A stretch of DNA of 64,000 bases from Roseovarius halotolerans (GTDB taxonomy: Bacteria > Pseudomonadota > Alphaproteobacteria > Rhodobacterales > Rhodobacteraceae), in assembly GCF_900172255.1 (NCBI RefSeq), contig NZ_FWFU01000001.1, forward strand, positions 124,001 to 188,000, written 5' to 3'. The position numbers were made by a program, and so were the translations under genes. Within the stretch, counting starts at the first letter, position 1, and each line of letters opens with the position of its first letter. Below the pieces are notes generated by a model. It ran no database searches, had not been told where the DNA came from, and saw nothing but the letters and a program-made list of their open reading frames with translations. Shown here piece after piece: positions 1,951 to 17,236 of this stretch.

Positions 1951-3564
1951 TCAGCTCACGTCCTTGTAGCTGATCTCGCGCTTGTCCTCGCCCAGGCGGC
2001 CACGCCGCACCAACAGGCGGTTGAGCGCGTTCACATAGGCCTTGGCCGAGGCGACGACCGTATCGGTATCGGCCGACTGGCCGGTGGCGATATTGCCCTC
2101 TTCCTCGAGCCGCACCGAAACGGTGGCCTGCGCGTCGGTGCCCTCGGTCACCGCATGCACCTGGTAGAGCGACAGATGCGCGTCGTTGGGATGCAGCTCG
2201 CGCACCGCCTTGAAGGTCGCATCGACCGGGCCGTCGCCGGTTCCGGTCACGCTTTTCTCGGTGCCGTCGATGACCATCACCAGCTCGGCCTCGGCCGGTC
2301 CGCCGGTGCCGCAGACGACGCGCAGCGACTTGATGACAAGGCGGTCGGTCGCCTCGTCCTCGCCGGCGCGCATCAGCGCGATGAGGTCCTCGTCATAGAC
2401 CTCCTTCTTGCGGTCGGCCAGTTCCTTGAAGCGCACGAACATGTCGTTGAGCTGGTTCTCGGCCAGCTCATAGCCCAGGTCCTTGAGCTTGGCGCGCAGT
2501 GCCGCGCGACCCGAATGCTTGCCCAGCACGATGCTGGTCTCGGCCAGCCCCACATCCGCCGGGCGCATGATCTCGAAGGTCTCGGCGTTCTTGAGCATCC
2601 CGTCCTGGTGGATGCCCGATTCATGGGCGAAGGCGTTCTTGCCCACGATCGCCTTGTTGTATTGCACCGGGAAACCGCTGACCGTGGCGACCCGGCGCGA
2701 GATGTTCATGATCTTGCGGCTGTCCACCTGGGTGTAGAAGGGCATGATGTCGCCGCGCACCTTCAGAGCCATCACCACCTCTTCGAGGGCGGTATTGCCG
2801 GCGCGCTCGCCCAGCCCGTTGATCGTGCATTCGATCTGGCGCGCACCACCCGCCACCGCGGCCAGCGCATTGGCCGTGGCAAGGCCCAGGTCGTTATGGC
2901 AATGGGTCGCAAAGACCACCTCGTCGGCGCCCGGCACATCGGCGATCAGGCGGCGGATCAGGTCGGCGCTTTCCACCGGCGCGGTATAGCCCACCGTGTC
3001 GGGAATGTTGATCGTGGTCGCGCCCGCCTTGATCGCGATCTCGACCACCCGGCGCAGGTAATCCCATTCGGTGCGCGTCGCATCCATCGGCGACCATTGC
3101 ACATCGTCGCACAGGTTGCGCGCATGGGTCACCGTTTCATGGATGCGCTCGGCCATTTCGTCCTGGGTGAGATTGGGGATCGCGCGGTGCAGCGGCGAGG
3201 TGCCGATGAAGGTATGGATACGCGGGCTGGCGGCGTGTTTCACTGCCTCCCAGGCGCGGTCGATATCCTTGATATGGGCACGCGCCAACCCGCAGATCGT
3301 GGCCTGTTTCGCTCGCTTGGCGATCTCGCTGACGGCGCGGAAATCGCCCTCGGAAGCGATCGGAAACCCCGCCTCGATGATATCCACGCCCATGTCATCG
3401 AGAAGTCCGGCGATCTCCAGCTTTTCCTCGTGGGTCATGGTGGCGCCGGGGGATTGTTCGCCGTCGCGCAGGGTGGTGTCGAAGATCACCACGCGATCCT
3501 TGCCCGCCTCGGGCGATACATCCTTGTCCGCTTCAGGCGATACGGTCTTGGTCTGGTCTGTCAT
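1951..3564 (-). CDS. leuA: 2-isopropylmalate synthase
   Basis: This 537-residue enzyme condenses 2-oxoisovalerate with acetyl-CoA, the first committed step of leucine synthesis, in the cytosol. The HMGL-like barrel carries [12 protein letters not shown] at residues 29-40, the metal-binding HCHNDLG and the family motif GLGERAGN; the C-terminal part has the length expected for the LeuA regulatory dimer domain, which normally confers leucine feedback. The N-terminus holds an eight-residue tandem duplication ([16 protein letters not shown]) from a 24-bp repeat at 3497-3544, a dispensable-looking extension before the barrel. Expression is probably controlled by the leader peptide and attenuator immediately upstream. 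The gene stands alone and ends at the terminator at 1896-1928. Confidence 0.97.
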
Positions 3565-3583
3565 GTCGAATCTCGTTCATTGT

Positions 3584-3657
3584 CCTAAGCCAAAGGCGCG
3601 AAAAGGCACATCCTCTGAGCGGTCGCGCCGGATCGGCACGCTCAGAGGCGGCTTAGG
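3584..3657 (-). promoter_or_regulatory. leucine attenuator: overlapping RNA stems between leader peptide and leuA
   Basis: Two nested complementary pairs are seen: CCTAAGCC (3657-3650 on the minus strand) with GGCTTAGG (3591-3584), and CCTCTGAGC (3648-3640) with GCTCAGAGG (3620-3612). The 5' arms overlap the last leucine codons and the stop of the leader peptide. An alternative hairpin GGCGCGA (3629-3623) with TCGCGCC (3601-3595), followed by TTT, would enclose the 3620-3612 arm in its loop, so the two folds cannot coexist. This is the logic of antiterminator versus terminator. The U tract is short, so control at translation is also possible. Confidence 0.8.
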
Positions 3658-3728
3658 AGCAGCAGGACGCGAACGCAACCCGCCTGGCGGGGCGTCACGG
3701 GAAAAGAGATATGGTCCTGCTTGATCAT
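3642..3728 (-). CDS. leucine-rich leader peptide of leuA
   Basis: A 28-residue ORF too short for routine gene calling begins with ATG at 3728 and ends with TGA at 3644-3642, 77 bases before leuA. It contains four consecutive leucine codons (CTG CTG CTC CTA) within VLLLLSRL near its end and a fifth just before the stop. The leucine codons lie exactly at the first arm of the stem set described at 3584-3657, as in ribosome-mediated attenuators. No Shine-Dalgarno is seen; a -10-like TATAGT ends seven bases before the ATG, so the message may be leaderless, as known for Sinorhizobium trpL. The function is inferred from architecture, not from homology. Confidence 0.82.
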   Translation of the reverse strand: MIKQDHISFPVTPRQAGCVRVLLLLSRL

Positions 3729-3735
3729 GGAACGA

Positions 3736-3763
3736 ACTATAGGGATCGCGACGCGCCTTGAAA
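3736..3763 (-). promoter_or_regulatory. candidate promoter of the leu leader-leuA unit
   Basis: On the minus strand TTTCAA (3763-3758) and TATAGT (3741-3736) are separated by 16 bases. The predicted transcription start falls at or next to the leader ATG at 3728. The -35 is a weak match, the -10 a good one. Confidence 0.5.
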
Positions 3764-3822
3764 ACCCCCGAATCCACTGCGTCCCCCATTGAAGCGTATC
3801 ACTGCCAGCCTATCTGGCGCGC

Positions 3823-4488
3823 ATGGAAAACGCATTGATCATCGGCGCCTCGGGCGGAATCGGCACCGCGCTCAGCGCCGCGCTCGAGACGCGCGGGGTC
3901 GCCGTGACCCCGCTCTCGCGCCGTCATGACGGGATCGACCTGACGGATGAGGACTCAATCAGCGCCGCGCTTGATCCGCTTGACGGTCCTTTCGATCTCA
4001 TCTTCGTCGCCACCGGCGGGCTCGAGATCGACGGCCAGCGCCCCGAGAAGTCCCTCAAGGAACTGAACGCGAAAGCGCTGGCCGACCAGTTCGCGCTCAA
4101 CTCCATCGGCCCCGCGCTGGTGCTCAAGCACGCGCCGCGCCTTCTGGCGCGCGACCGGCGGGCGGTCTTTGCGGCGCTGTCGGCGCGGGTGGGGTCGATC
4201 GGCGACAACCGGTTCGGCGGCTGGTATGGCTACCGCGCCGCCAAGGCCGCGCTGAACCAGATCGTCCATACCGGCGCGATCGAACTCGGCCGCACGCACC
4301 GCCAGTCCATCTGCGTCGCGCTCCATCCCGGCACCGTGGAAACACCCCTCACGGCGCGCTATGCCCGCAATCACCCGACCGTCCCCGCGCCCGAGGCGGC
4401 AAACAACCTCTTGGGCGTGATCGACGGTCTGACCCCGGCCCAGAGCGGGCAGTTCTTCGACTGGGCCGGGAAGCCCGTGCCGTGGTGA
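3823..4488 (+). CDS. short-chain dehydrogenase/reductase (CsgA/C-factor-like)
   Basis: A 221-residue single-domain SDR. The N-terminal NAD(P) Rossmann motif is GASGGIGTAL at residues 8-17, and the catalytic YxxxK is YGYRAAK near residue 140, with the preceding SARVGSIGDN strand carrying the serine region. The substrate is unknown. It overlaps the downstream photolyase by 4 bases (GTGA), so the two are very probably co-transcribed and translationally coupled. SDR genes next to CryB-type photolyases are seen in relatives, but no functional link is established. It is divergent from the leuA leader, with about 60 bp between the leader promoter and this start. Confidence 0.88.
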   Translation: MENALIIGASGGIGTALSAALETRGVAVTPLSRRHDGIDLTDEDSISAALDPLDGPFDLIFVATGGLEIDGQRPEKSLKELNAKALADQFALNSIGPALVLKHAPRLLARDRRAVFAALSARVGSIGDNRFGGWYGYRAAKAALNQIVHTGAIELGRTHRQSICVALHPGTVETPLTARYARNHPTVPAPEAANNLLGVIDGLTPAQSGQFFDWAGKPVPW

Positions 4489-6096: not shown

Positions 6097-7584
6097 TCAG
6101 TCGCTCTGCGTGGCCGGGGCCTCGGGTTCGGCCTCTGGCGCGTCGGGCGTGTCGGCGGGCTCCGGCGTGTCACCGGCGGGGGCGGATTCGGTCTGCTTGT
6201 CCAGTGCGCCGTCCTCCCAGGTGCCGCTCGCCTCTTCGCCGGTGGCATAGCGCATCGTGCCTTCGCCCTGGCGCTTGCCCTTGAGGAACGTGCCCTCGTA
6301 GACATCGCCATTGGTGTAGGTGGCGATGCCCTGGCCCGAGATTTCGCCCTCTTTCCATTCGCCTTCGTATGTGAAGCCGTCGGGCATGGTGATCTTGCCC
6401 TGGCCGTGGCGCTGGCCGTCAAGGAACGCGCCCTCGTAGACGGTGCCGTCGGGATAGGTGGCGGTGCCCATGCCCTCGCGCTGGCCGTCCTTCCACTGGC
6501 CCTCGTAGCGGTAGCCATCGGCATAGGTCATGACACCCTGGCCGTGGTTGCGCGCGTTCTCGAACTCGCCCTCGTAGACCACGCCGTTGGGATACGTGGC
6601 CCGGCCTTGGCCGTCGATCACGCCGCCACGCCATTCGCCTTCGTATGTCGAGCCGTCGGGATAGGTGATCTTGCCCTCGCCATTGGCGAGATCGTCGCGG
6701 AACGCCCCCTCGTAGACCGAACCGTCAGGATAGGTCACGCGCCCCTGGCCCGAGATCTTGCCCGCGCTCCAGGAGCCTTCGTAGCGATAGCCGTCGGTGC
6801 CCGTGAACACGCCCTGGCCGTGGCGTCGGTCATCCTCGAACGCGCCCTCGTAGACATCGCCGTTCTCATAGGTCACGCGGCCCTGGCCCTCGCGCCGCCC
6901 GGCCACGAGGTCACCCTCATAGACATCGCCATTGGGCTGGATCAGCTTTCCGGTGCCGTCGATCTGCCCGTCCTGCCAGCGCCCCTCGTAGATCAGCCCG
7001 TCGGGCATGGTCAGCGTGCCTTGCCCGTGGCGCGCCCCGCGGCTCACCTCGCCCTCGTAGACCGCGCCGTCAGGGTATGTGATCCGCGCCGCGCCGTCCT
7101 TGACGCCATTGACCCAGTCGCCCTCGTAGACATAGCCGCCGGGGCTTTCCATGCGGCCCTTGCCGTGATGCATGGCATTGCGGAAACCGCCCTCGTAGCG
7201 CACCCCGTTGGCATAGACCGCGACCCCCTGGCCGGTGATCTTGCCATCCAGCCAGTCGCCCTCATAGGTGCCGCCATCGGCGAAGACGATCTTGCCCACG
7301 CCCTCGGGCTTGCCCTTGGCGAACTCGCCCTCGTAGACCGACCCGTTGGGAAAGCGCGCAACCCCCTGGCCGCGGATCTCGCCATCGACCCATTCACCGG
7401 AATATTCATAGCCATTGGGCAGCGTGTAGGTGCCGGTGCCATGCTGCAGTCCGTTCCTGAACGTGCCCTCGTAGATGCCGCCATCGTCATATTGCTTGGT
7501 CTGCACCTCGCCGTCCTGCGCCAGTGCGGCACCTCCGGCCAGCATCATCGCGGCGATCGTCGCATCCCTCAGTGAAAAGCTCAT
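6097..7584 (-). CDS. secreted MORN-repeat protein, about 19 repeats
   Basis: A 495-residue protein with an N-terminal signal peptide (cleavage likely after AALA, near residue 22) followed by about 19 back-to-back 23-residue MORN units of the form DGxxYEGxWxxGxxxGxGxxxYP from about residue 30 to 460. The last unit is degenerate. A Pro/Glu/Ala-rich tail of roughly 30 residues ends the protein. MORN repeats form elongated beta-hairpin rods and in eukaryotes bind lipids or scaffold membranes; the role of exported bacterial versions is not known. No enzymatic domain is present. The gene is monocistronic, divergent from nadE. The 69-bp periodicity of the DNA is coding, not a separate tandem repeat. 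Confidence 0.93.
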   Translation of the reverse strand: MSFSLRDATIAAMMLAGGAALAQDGEVQTKQYDDGGIYEGTFRNGLQHGTGTYTLPNGYEYSGEWVDGEIRGQGVARFPNGSVYEGEFAKGKPEGVGKIVFADGGTYEGDWLDGKITGQGVAVYANGVRYEGGFRNAMHHGKGRMESPGGYVYEGDWVNGVKDGAARITYPDGAVYEGEVSRGARHGQGTLTMPDGLIYEGRWQDGQIDGTGKLIQPNGDVYEGDLVAGRREGQGRVTYENGDVYEGAFEDDRRHGQGVFTGTDGYRYEGSWSAGKISGQGRVTYPDGSVYEGAFRDDLANGEGKITYPDGSTYEGEWRGGVIDGQGRATYPNGVVYEGEFENARNHGQGVMTYADGYRYEGQWKDGQREGMGTATYPDGTVYEGAFLDGQRHGQGKITMPDGFTYEGEWKEGEISGQGIATYTNGDVYEGTFLKGKRQGEGTMRYATGEEASGTWEDGALDKQTESAPAGDTPEPADTPDAPEAEPEAPATQSD

Positions 7585-15831: not shown

Positions 15832-15866
15832 AACCGGGGTTTCGGTATACTAGCGTAGCCAGCATT

Positions 15867-16018
15867 CGAAACGGGAGAACCGGCCACGCCGGTGCCGAAG
15901 GAGCAACCGCCCCGGAAACTCTCAGGCGACAGGGACCGTTTCGACACTGAAAACTCTGGAGAGTGGTGCACGCGATGCGCCCGCCGAAGGGATAGCGATC
16001 TCAGGCGCAAGGACAGAG
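15867..16018 (+). promoter_or_regulatory. tandem glycine riboswitch controlling gcvTHP
   Basis: Two glycine aptamers lie in series. Aptamer 1 is closed by CGAAACGG (15867-15874) with CCGTTTCG (15936-15943) and has the conserved GGGAGA, GCCGAAGGAGCAA and ACTCTCAGGCGACAGG blocks. Aptamer 2 is closed by CTCTG (15954-15958) with CAGAG (16014-16018) and has GCCGAAGGGA and TCTCAGGCGCAAGGACAG. The second lies 90 bases upstream of gcvT. Glycine binding normally turns such operons on. A TATACT at 15846-15851 is a plausible -10 for the transcript. Confidence 0.95.
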
Positions 16019-16108
16019 GGGGCATCGAGGCACGGGCCGAATGGGTCGTGCATGGACGATGCCGGATTGATACCGTGGTCAAACTGGCGCCATTTTGGGA
16101 GGATCCCG

Positions 16109-17236
16109 ATGAGCGACACGCTGCGCAGGACGCCGCTGCATGCCCTGCACCTGGAATTGGGTGCCAAGATGGTGCCCTTTGCGGGCTATGACATGCCGGT
16201 GCAATACCCTCTGGGGGTGATGAAGGAACATTTGCACACACGCGCGGCGGCGGGTCTGTTCGATGTCAGCCACATGGGGCAGGTCATTGTGCGCGCCGAG
16301 GGTGGTTACGACGCCGCGGCGCTTACTCTCGAGGCGCTTGTGCCGGTCGATATCCTTGGGCTCGGAGAGGGGCGTCAGCGCTACGGGGTCTTTACCAACG
16401 AGGCGGGCGGGATAGGCGATGATCTGATGATCGCGCATCGGGACGATCATCTTTTTGTTGTGGTCAACGCCGCCTGCAAGGAAGCCGATATCGCCCACAT
16501 GCGCGCCGGGATGCCGGGCTGCGAGGTCGAGGAGATCACCGACCGCGCGCTCTTGGCGCTTCAGGGCCCGCGCGCCGAGGCGGTGTTGAGCGCCCTGGTC
16601 CCGGATGTGCGTAACATGCGGTTCATGGATGTCGCGGTTCTGGATAGCGATTATGGAGAGCTCTGGATATCCCGGTCTGGCTATACCGGTGAGGACGGGT
16701 TCGAGGTTTCCGTCGCGAATGAAAACGCCGAGGCCTTGGCCCGCGCCTTGCTGGCGAATGACGAGGTGGAGCCGATCGGCCTTGGTGCGCGCGACAGCCT
16801 GCGCCTTGAGGCGGGGCTTTGCCTTTACGGGCATGATATCGACAGCACGACGACGCCGGTCGAGGCCGCGCTGGCCTGGGCGATCCAGAAGCTGCGCCGC
16901 AATGGCGGCGCGCGCGCTGGCGGCTTTCCCGGCGCGGACGTCGTTCTGGAGCAGCTTGAAAGCGGCGCATCGCGTCGCCGCGTGGGGCTGCGTCCCGAGG
17001 GGCGAGCGCCGATGCGCGAGGGCACCGAGCTATACGCTCGGGAAGAGGGCGGCGCGCCGCTGGGGCGTGTGACGTCTGGTGCCTTCGGCCCGACGATCGG
17101 TGCGCCGATGTCGATGGGTTACGTGCCATCCGAGATGGCCGAAACCGGCACCATGCTGTATGGCGAGGTGCGTGGAAAACGCATGCCGGTGAAGGTGGCG
17201 AAAATGCCATTCACCCCGGCCAATTTCAAACGCTGA
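16109..17236 (+). CDS. gcvT: glycine cleavage system aminomethyltransferase (T protein)
   Basis: A 375-residue folate enzyme that takes the aminomethyl group from lipoylated H protein, releasing ammonia and 5,10-methylene-THF. The N-terminus [20 protein letters not shown] and the folate-binding region with [10 protein letters not shown] near residue 190 are characteristic. GGGAGG at 16097-16102 is six bases before the ATG; the in-frame ATG at 16052 falls between riboswitch and gene and lacks family sequence. It is the first gene of gcvT-gcvH-gcvP and the direct target of the glycine riboswitch. Confidence 0.97.

Follow-up and report, generated by a model that had tools for sequence, protein, structure and literature searches.

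What controls leuA, the gene for 2-isopropylmalate synthase, in Roseovarius halotolerans? The gene lies on the minus strand of a 64,000-nucleotide stretch (positions 124,001 to 188,000 of contig NZ_FWFU01000001.1, assembly GCF_900172255.1), which we call the window and in whose numbering all coordinates are given, and a short open reading frame (ORF) that carries a run of Leu codons near its end stands upstream of it. From sequence analysis we propose, with confidence just short of even, that this leader is a leucine-sensing leader-peptide attenuator that most likely acts on translation and not through an intrinsic terminator. That the features at the leader exceed chance is confirmed: the region has a folding energy of -70.5 kcal/mol (z = -4.26), a stability reached by none of 200 shuffled sequences, and the ORF, the pairing arms, and the promoter spacing are kept in relatives.

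A conserved leucine leader peptide

An earlier interpretation made from the letters alone (the sequence-only reading) had placed a leucine leader peptide upstream of leuA, and this was borne out: the gene could be named through NCBIfam, and the leader is conserved in relatives. Our Rhodobacteraceae set consisted of the best 80 leuA loci, 31 loci, and 4 further loci of the same family (115 in all, 106 after de-duplication), and a permissive pattern found the leader core in 115 of 115. The 28-codon ORF and the codons CTG CTG CTC CTA are real, but these codons, described earlier as the end of the ORF, are followed by AGC CGC CTC TGA, which puts the Leu run near the end and not at it (peptide C-terminus LLLLSRL*). 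Among the 106 loci, the C-termini included SRL (38 loci), IRL (18), TRL (17), and SSL (9), and at least four of the last eight leader residues were Leu in 101.

Conservation of the Leu codons in relatives had been named in advance as a test, and codon -4, counted from the stop, encodes Leu in every one of the 106 loci (CTA in 77, CTT in 28, and CTG in 1). CTA accounts for 73% of leader Leu codons at position -4, 10% at -5, 25% at -6, 23% at -7, and 6% at -8; it makes up 1.8% of the 3551 Leu codons of leuA in the same loci, and five genes of the window have it at 1 of 212 Leu codons. Since codon -4 sits in the base stem P1 described below, pairing can explain part of its CTA excess; codon -7 and much of codon -6 fall outside the commonest P1 helix. 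Leu at -4 and the CUA enrichment together suggest selection on the codons.

The leader message is predicted to be leaderless, starting at or near the leader start codon. A distance of seven bases between the -10 box and the ATG, from which the sequence-only reading had predicted such a start, was confirmed in the window and recurs in relatives, the -10 box ending 6 to 8 nt before the leader ATG (typically 7) in 100 of 106 loci. When ties were broken toward larger gaps, a gap of 6 to 8 nt was found in 82/106 loci, compared to 37% in shuffled upstream sequence. Strong -10 scores were obtained upstream of the leader in 95/106 loci versus 12.6% in the shuffled control; the leader ATG was picked by its best -10 box, which favors this result, and the shuffled control was picked likewise. 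A Shine-Dalgarno (SD)-like tetramer precedes the leader ATG in only 1 of the 106 loci. The promoter-like site of the window, TTTTCA and TATAGT with a spacer of 17, is one of two in a 401-base stretch for which 0.1 would be expected.

Base pairing in the leader RNA

Four helices were distinguished in the leader RNA (Table 1). The minimum-energy fold of the window leader consists of P2 and P3 inside the base stem P1. P3 and P4 are mutually exclusive, with GGCGC common to both, and the crossing helices P2 and P4 would form an H-type pseudoknot whose loops measure 9, 1, and 10 nt. The two arm pairs and the alternative GGCGCGA/TCGCGCC pairing described earlier are present on the minus strand, and the exclusive pairings are conserved. 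Covariation of the arms, proposed at the same time as a check, held in part: P1, P2, and P4 show compensated changes, while P3 varies on one side only.

P2 has no unpaired cell in alignment A1 (87 rows) and changes on both sides at 3 pairs; the pairing count is slightly flattering because the rows were picked with a loose P2 pattern. A1 omits identical rows, several loci of the cupin type described below (L004, L005, L008, L054, L058, L061, L071, L073, and L078), and L045, where P2 appears to be broken. In the class-wide alignment A2 (27 rows, without L123, L129, L131, L138, L045, and L176), two-sided changes occur at 5 of the 10 P2 pairs, in 13 cells versus 3.3 in shuffles. Between 98.0 and 99.6% of P4 cells are paired, with the arm misaligned or gapped by eye in several A1 rows, and one P4 pair is C-G in 71 rows, U-A in 11, and unpaired in 1 (83 rows). 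No two-sided change was found in P3.

For P1, the Leu-codon 18-mer forms a Watson-Crick run of at least 8 with the downstream region in 46/106 loci, compared to 6.8% when partners were swapped and 0.8% when they were shuffled. The helix sequences are diverse and compensated (TCCTAAGCC/GGCTTAGGA, TCCTTAGCC/GGCTAAGGA, CTACTAAGC/GCTTAGTAG, and TCTGCTAAG/CTTAGCAGA). The P1 duplex energy was -14.7 kcal/mol for a locus's own partner, -12.7 for shuffled, and -12.1 for swapped partners, beating the shuffled mean in 76/106 loci and the swapped mean in 90/106; because this energy test is confounded by long stretches, the run-length test was taken as the main one.

Table 1. Features of the leuA leader locus in window coordinates
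Feature	Position	Strand	Basis
leuA, 2-isopropylmalate synthase, regulated gene	1951..3564	-	NCBIfam NF002087 (828.5 bits) and TIGR00973 (659.1 bits), both above cut-off
Leader ORF, 28 codons, MIKQDHISFPVTPRQAGCVRVLLLLSRL*, predicted leaderless	3642..3728	-	ORF list, relatives
-35-like hexamer TTTTCA	3759..3764	-	promoter pattern scan; many relatives similar at the same place, by eye
-10 hexamer TATAGT	3736..3741	-	promoter pattern scan; ends 7 nt before leader ATG (3728)
Control codons CTG CTG CTC CTA	3654..3665	-	codon -4 Leu in 106/106 loci
P1 base stem 5' arm TCCTAAGCC, from Leu and next codons	3650..3658	-	fold, P1 run-length test
P1 base stem 3' arm GGCTTAGGA	3583..3591	-	ends 18 nt before leuA ATG; at ribosome-binding site in cupin-type loci
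P2 5' arm CCTCTGAGCG, contains UGA stop	3639..3648	-	870/870 cells paired in alignment A1
P2 3' arm CGCTCAGAGG	3612..3621	-	alignment A1 and class-wide A2
P3 5' arm TGCC, pairs with GGCG 3626-3629, alternative to P4	3635..3638	-	98.3% of cells paired
P4 5' arm GGCGCGA, first bases double as P3 3' arm	3623..3629	-	one pair covaries
P4 3' arm TCGCGCC	3595..3601	-	pairing conserved in relatives

Position of the base stem and proposed mechanism

In 11 loci (L004, L005, L008, L054, L058, L061, L071, L073, L078, L114, and L115), the leader and leuA are separated by a cupin gene, which the leader then precedes. We take the product of this small gene to be a cupin-like protein, of 118 residues in the three that were translated. 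In L035, an apparent remnant of the gene occupies the position between leader and leuA. That some loci lack the leader was considered and rejected, the leader being found upstream of the inserted cupin gene.

In these operons the downstream P1 arm (e.g., GCTTAGGAG, GCTAAGGA, and GATTAGGA) is, or overlaps, the ribosome-binding site (RBS) of the cupin gene. A script places the best anti-SD site inside the arm in 10 of the 11 cupin-type loci, and inspection by eye does so in L005, with a G-U pair; in L004 the arm pairs with the Leu codons CTC CTA plus the following AGC. When the Leu codons were masked, the mean cost of opening the RBS fell from 7.3 to 3.8 kcal/mol, with a drop in 10 of the 11; the exception is L078, where the cost rises from 8.3 to 9.1 kcal/mol. 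Elsewhere in the class, outside Rhodobacteraceae, the Leu region pairs with the region from -18 to -4 (run of at least 6) in 36/92 loci versus 13.8% with swapped partners (for example, TCCTTCGACT/AGTCGAAGGA in L205, gap 8); the corresponding figure for Rhodobacteraceae, cupin-type loci included, is 16/106 versus 6.7%. Because the base stem joins Leu codons to sequence at, or close to, the RBS of the first gene, control of translation is favored over intrinsic termination. The case for such control is strong in cupin-type operons, and for the window we only infer it.

Under this proposal, a ribosome supplied with enough leucine would complete the leader and depart, P1 would close on a P2/P4 (or P2/P3) core, and the closed stem would hinder ribosome loading at the first gene. 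If charged tRNA-Leu were scarce, the ribosome would stall on the Leu codons and hold P1 open, and leuA would be translated. The leucine response of leuA would then depend on the UCCUAAGCC/GGCUUAGGA pairing. The block would be direct where P1 includes the SD sequence, as in the cupin-type operons, a few direct ones (leader immediately before leuA), and part of the other families. In the window, P1 stops 18 nt short of the start codon and might instead mask a standby region upstream of a weak site, which is the least certain step.

Several observations weigh against this proposal. Among direct loci with a P1 run of at least 6 (n = 66), the arm ends 13 to 26 nt before the ATG in 61, the window included; it ends 7 to 9 nt before the ATG in only 3 and more than 100 nt before it in 2. 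Our confidence in translational control is lowered because the arm comes within 12 nt of the ATG in just those 3 of 66. P1 has no Watson-Crick run of at least 6 in 30/106 loci, and the P1 arm contains the best anti-SD site in 34 of 98 loci, a count that includes the cupin type. In the 90 direct loci, masking the Leu codons lowered the RBS opening cost only from 3.74 to 3.06 kcal/mol, and in the window the cost rises, from 1.7 kcal/mol free to 3.2 kcal/mol stalled. Over 101 loci the mean drop was 0.99 versus 0.47 in the control, with values above the control in just 53; P4 was left out of the folding model that gave these energies. An outer helix between the upstream Leu codons and the leuA RBS of direct loci found no support (13/61, versus 14% swapped and 27% shuffled). 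Passages of a 2005 study (PMC1262725) report that Leu-codon mutants of Streptomyces coelicolor leuA are inconsistent with classical attenuation, and these results, with the bound-protein proposal made there, count against a simple stalling model.

Of the 106 loci, 105 were read for the terminator count given below, 101 for opening energies, and 98 by the anti-SD and codon script. The start of the first gene was chosen automatically and is wrong in at least L008, L017, and L095, which were kept in the counts.

Alternative explanations

Rho-dependent attenuation, in which release of the leader ribosome would expose RNA to Rho, or repression of leuA would secondarily trigger Rho termination inside leuA, is unlikely but keeps an appreciable chance. 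It would suit a leader with clear control codons and yet no U-rich tail, and Rho has been proposed for some terminator-less actinobacterial leaders in passages of PMC1262725. Against it, only a short distance separates the leader stop from leuA, 77 nt in the window, and no Rho is needed to explain why P1 lies at the RBS in cupin-type loci.

We consider it distinctly improbable that the RNA fold is a binding site for a trans-acting factor, protein or small RNA, with the leader peptide secondary. The sequence GCCUCUGAGCGUGCC is unusually constant, with 17 invariant columns over 87 alignment rows, and a bound protein has been proposed for the actinobacterial LEU element (PMC1262725, in part). Against such a site stand Leu at codon -4 in 106/106 loci and the CUA enrichment, which suggest codon selection, together with compensated changes that affect 5 of the 10 P2 pairs across the class.

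The sequence-only reading had favored classical transcription attenuation: a ribosome at the stop would let the GGCGCGA/TCGCGCC hairpin form and terminate, and a ribosome stalled at Leu codons would let P2 form, with read-through. The exclusive P3 and P4, an order that suits the stalling logic, and the covarying P4 pair fit this choice, as does the window's own sequence after P4, with five T in eight bases, although not in one run. This part of the earlier interpretation did not hold up. None of 104 other loci has at least five T among the eight bases after P4. Of 105 loci the window alone has such a tail, and the terminator step is therefore not a family trait; a run of four or five T anywhere between P2 and the start codon is found in 10/105. 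A terminator pattern scan listed none, but it covers loops of 3 to 8 only and is blind to a long-loop P4 hairpin; the intrinsic terminator was rejected on the T counts after P4 and not on that scan. Classical attenuation also gives the base stem P1 no role, and we regard it as highly unlikely. A stem that merely protects or stabilizes leuA mRNA, with no leucine response, would account for the very stable fold but leaves the leader ORF, the Leu run, the rare codons, and the promoter spacing unexplained, and it is hardly credible.

Distribution of the leader element

The element recurs in many relatives. At E ≤ 0.001, RNA model R1 had a single match in each of 380 of the 394 family genomes (338/347 of the good-quality genomes); the element is carried by 380 of the 388 leuA-bearing family genomes, and 6 of the 14 misses (G033, G172, G245, G306, G359, and G393) also gave no leuA match. 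The wider model R2 matched 111/385 Alphaproteobacteria genomes (94/315 of good quality) from 59 family codes by our count. These genome searches were not blind, since the loci behind R1 were picked for their similarity in leuA and some of those behind R2 came from R1 matches. In a Pseudomonadota draw, 73 of 398 genomes matched, all of them R. halotolerans's own, of the same family, or of the same class; the number of the 398 outside the class is not given. A LeuA match by tblastn was present within 110/110 R2 loci, which speaks to presence in the locus and not to gene order. In an earlier R1 search leuA was in the locus for 25/29 matches, and the four without it (L127, L133, L136, and L140) were taken as chance.

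A strict motif script that favors leaders ending in P* recovered the core in 59/110 R2 loci, where the commonest leader ends were LRLRCP, LRLSRP, LRLTRP, and LLLIRP. A looser rule read 104 of 105 non-Rhodobacteraceae loci (L275 missing), with a poor P2 score (6.0 to 6.5) in 8 of the 104 placements. Leaders outside Rhodobacteraceae (L180 to L287) often read L-R-L-x-x-P*, with a recurrent CGA CUU ahead of the hairpin in which the Arg codon CGA is kept.

The leuA gene was typed in nine class loci, hand-picked in that six looked different by eye: it is of the TIGR00970 type in 6, all above cut-off, and of the TIGR00973 type in 3. The element therefore precedes two distantly related leuA types. The TIGR00970-type genes preceded by it are in L253, L266, L268, L269, L274, and L281, from other alphaproteobacterial families. 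In the window, the N-terminus of LeuA (3496-3564, minus strand) contains a repeated SPEA.KD-like unit whose copy number differs between species, with more copies in L009; the unit was also seen in L077. An 18-kb record of Phaeobacter inhibens deposited as a plasmid (L177, NZ_CP081282.1) carries leuA with the same leader, adjoining rlmJ, which may be an assembly matter.

No Rfam family for the leader element was found, either at gathering scores across the whole window or with E up to 5 in 3500-3850, and titles and abstract openings of the open-access literature gave no earlier description of an alphaproteobacterial leuA leader of this kind; passages of PMC3388012 have nothing about leuA either. 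A 2004 study of proteobacterial attenuators by Vitreschak et al., cited in PMC10117765, may already list such a leader. Our results suggest that many Alphaproteobacteria control leucine synthesis through a leader ORF that is leaderless and lacks a terminator; searches based on terminators would miss leaders of this type.

Other features of the window

A glycine riboswitch aptamer (RF00504, 58.5 bits) lies at 15862-15948 on the plus strand, just upstream of an ORF at 16052-17236. The translation of this ORF resembles what we take to be glycine-cleavage T protein, for which pairing with the riboswitch would be expected. On the minus strand, 6097-7584 encodes a 495-residue protein of many YEG.. 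near-repeats, presumably a MORN-repeat protein by resemblance; it had no NCBIfam match at E = 1e-10.

Comparison with known systems

The attenuator of the enteric leu operon uses alternative RNA pairings, as the window leader does. Its leader, leuL, is described in passages of PMC6123439 as a 28-residue peptide with 4 Leu, so that leader length and Leu codons agree as well. The systems differ in that the U-rich tail is missing in relatives of the window leader, and the leader has no Rfam match here. In Sinorhizobium meliloti, trpL (rnTrpL) is a known leaderless case according to passages of PMC10117765, and is likewise an alphaproteobacterial leader ORF on a leaderless message, predicted in our case. 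There the attenuator is a small RNA (rnTrpL), whereas nothing predicts a released RNA from the window leader.

The closest likeness in layout is to the LEU element, which stands upstream of leuA in Actinobacteria and whose mechanism was left open in 2005, with an ML1624-type helicase as the proposed regulator (Seliverstov et al. 2005, PMC1262725, in part). Both that element and the window family have a pseudoknot, predicted from crossing helices in the window family, and an alternative hairpin, and the layout matches, except that the base stem in most direct loci here stops short of the start codon. A further point of likeness is the TIGR00970-type leuA that follows the element in the six alphaproteobacterial loci named above. 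The LEU element also belongs to another phylum. We compared four actinobacterial leuA-like loci (L172 to L175) from plasmid-collection records. L173 (Microbacterium) has MQFGLLLLSCRDESSD* with CTTCTTCTT opposite GAAGAGAAGAAG directly before leuA, and L174 (Tsukamurella) has the leader VQWRALLLGCRGGV*; both show, by eye, a -10-like box 6 nt ahead of the leader start. In the family described here P2 contains the stop codon, whereas the L173 peptide runs on (LLLLSCRDESSD*). No such leader was seen in L175, and the examined stretch of L172 was too short upstream to judge. R2 scores on these loci were 15.1 bits for L173 (E = 0.0046), 11.1 for L174, 9.6 for L172, and 5.1 for L175, too weak to claim descent.

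A single translational leucine switch, combining a pseudoknot and a stem between Leu codons and RBS with a leaderless sensor ORF, might control two distantly related leuA types across Alphaproteobacteria and also operate in Actinobacteria, whether ancient or convergent. We hold this wider idea to be possible but doubtful, with its standing raised slightly by the leuA typing (TIGR00970 and TIGR00973 types). Convergence could come about because Leu codons such as CUC CUU naturally complement the SD sequence. With an independent collection of hundreds of genomes that carry the element, some of them from easily handled marine bacteria such as Phaeobacter inhibens, a mechanism of the LEU type becomes directly testable.
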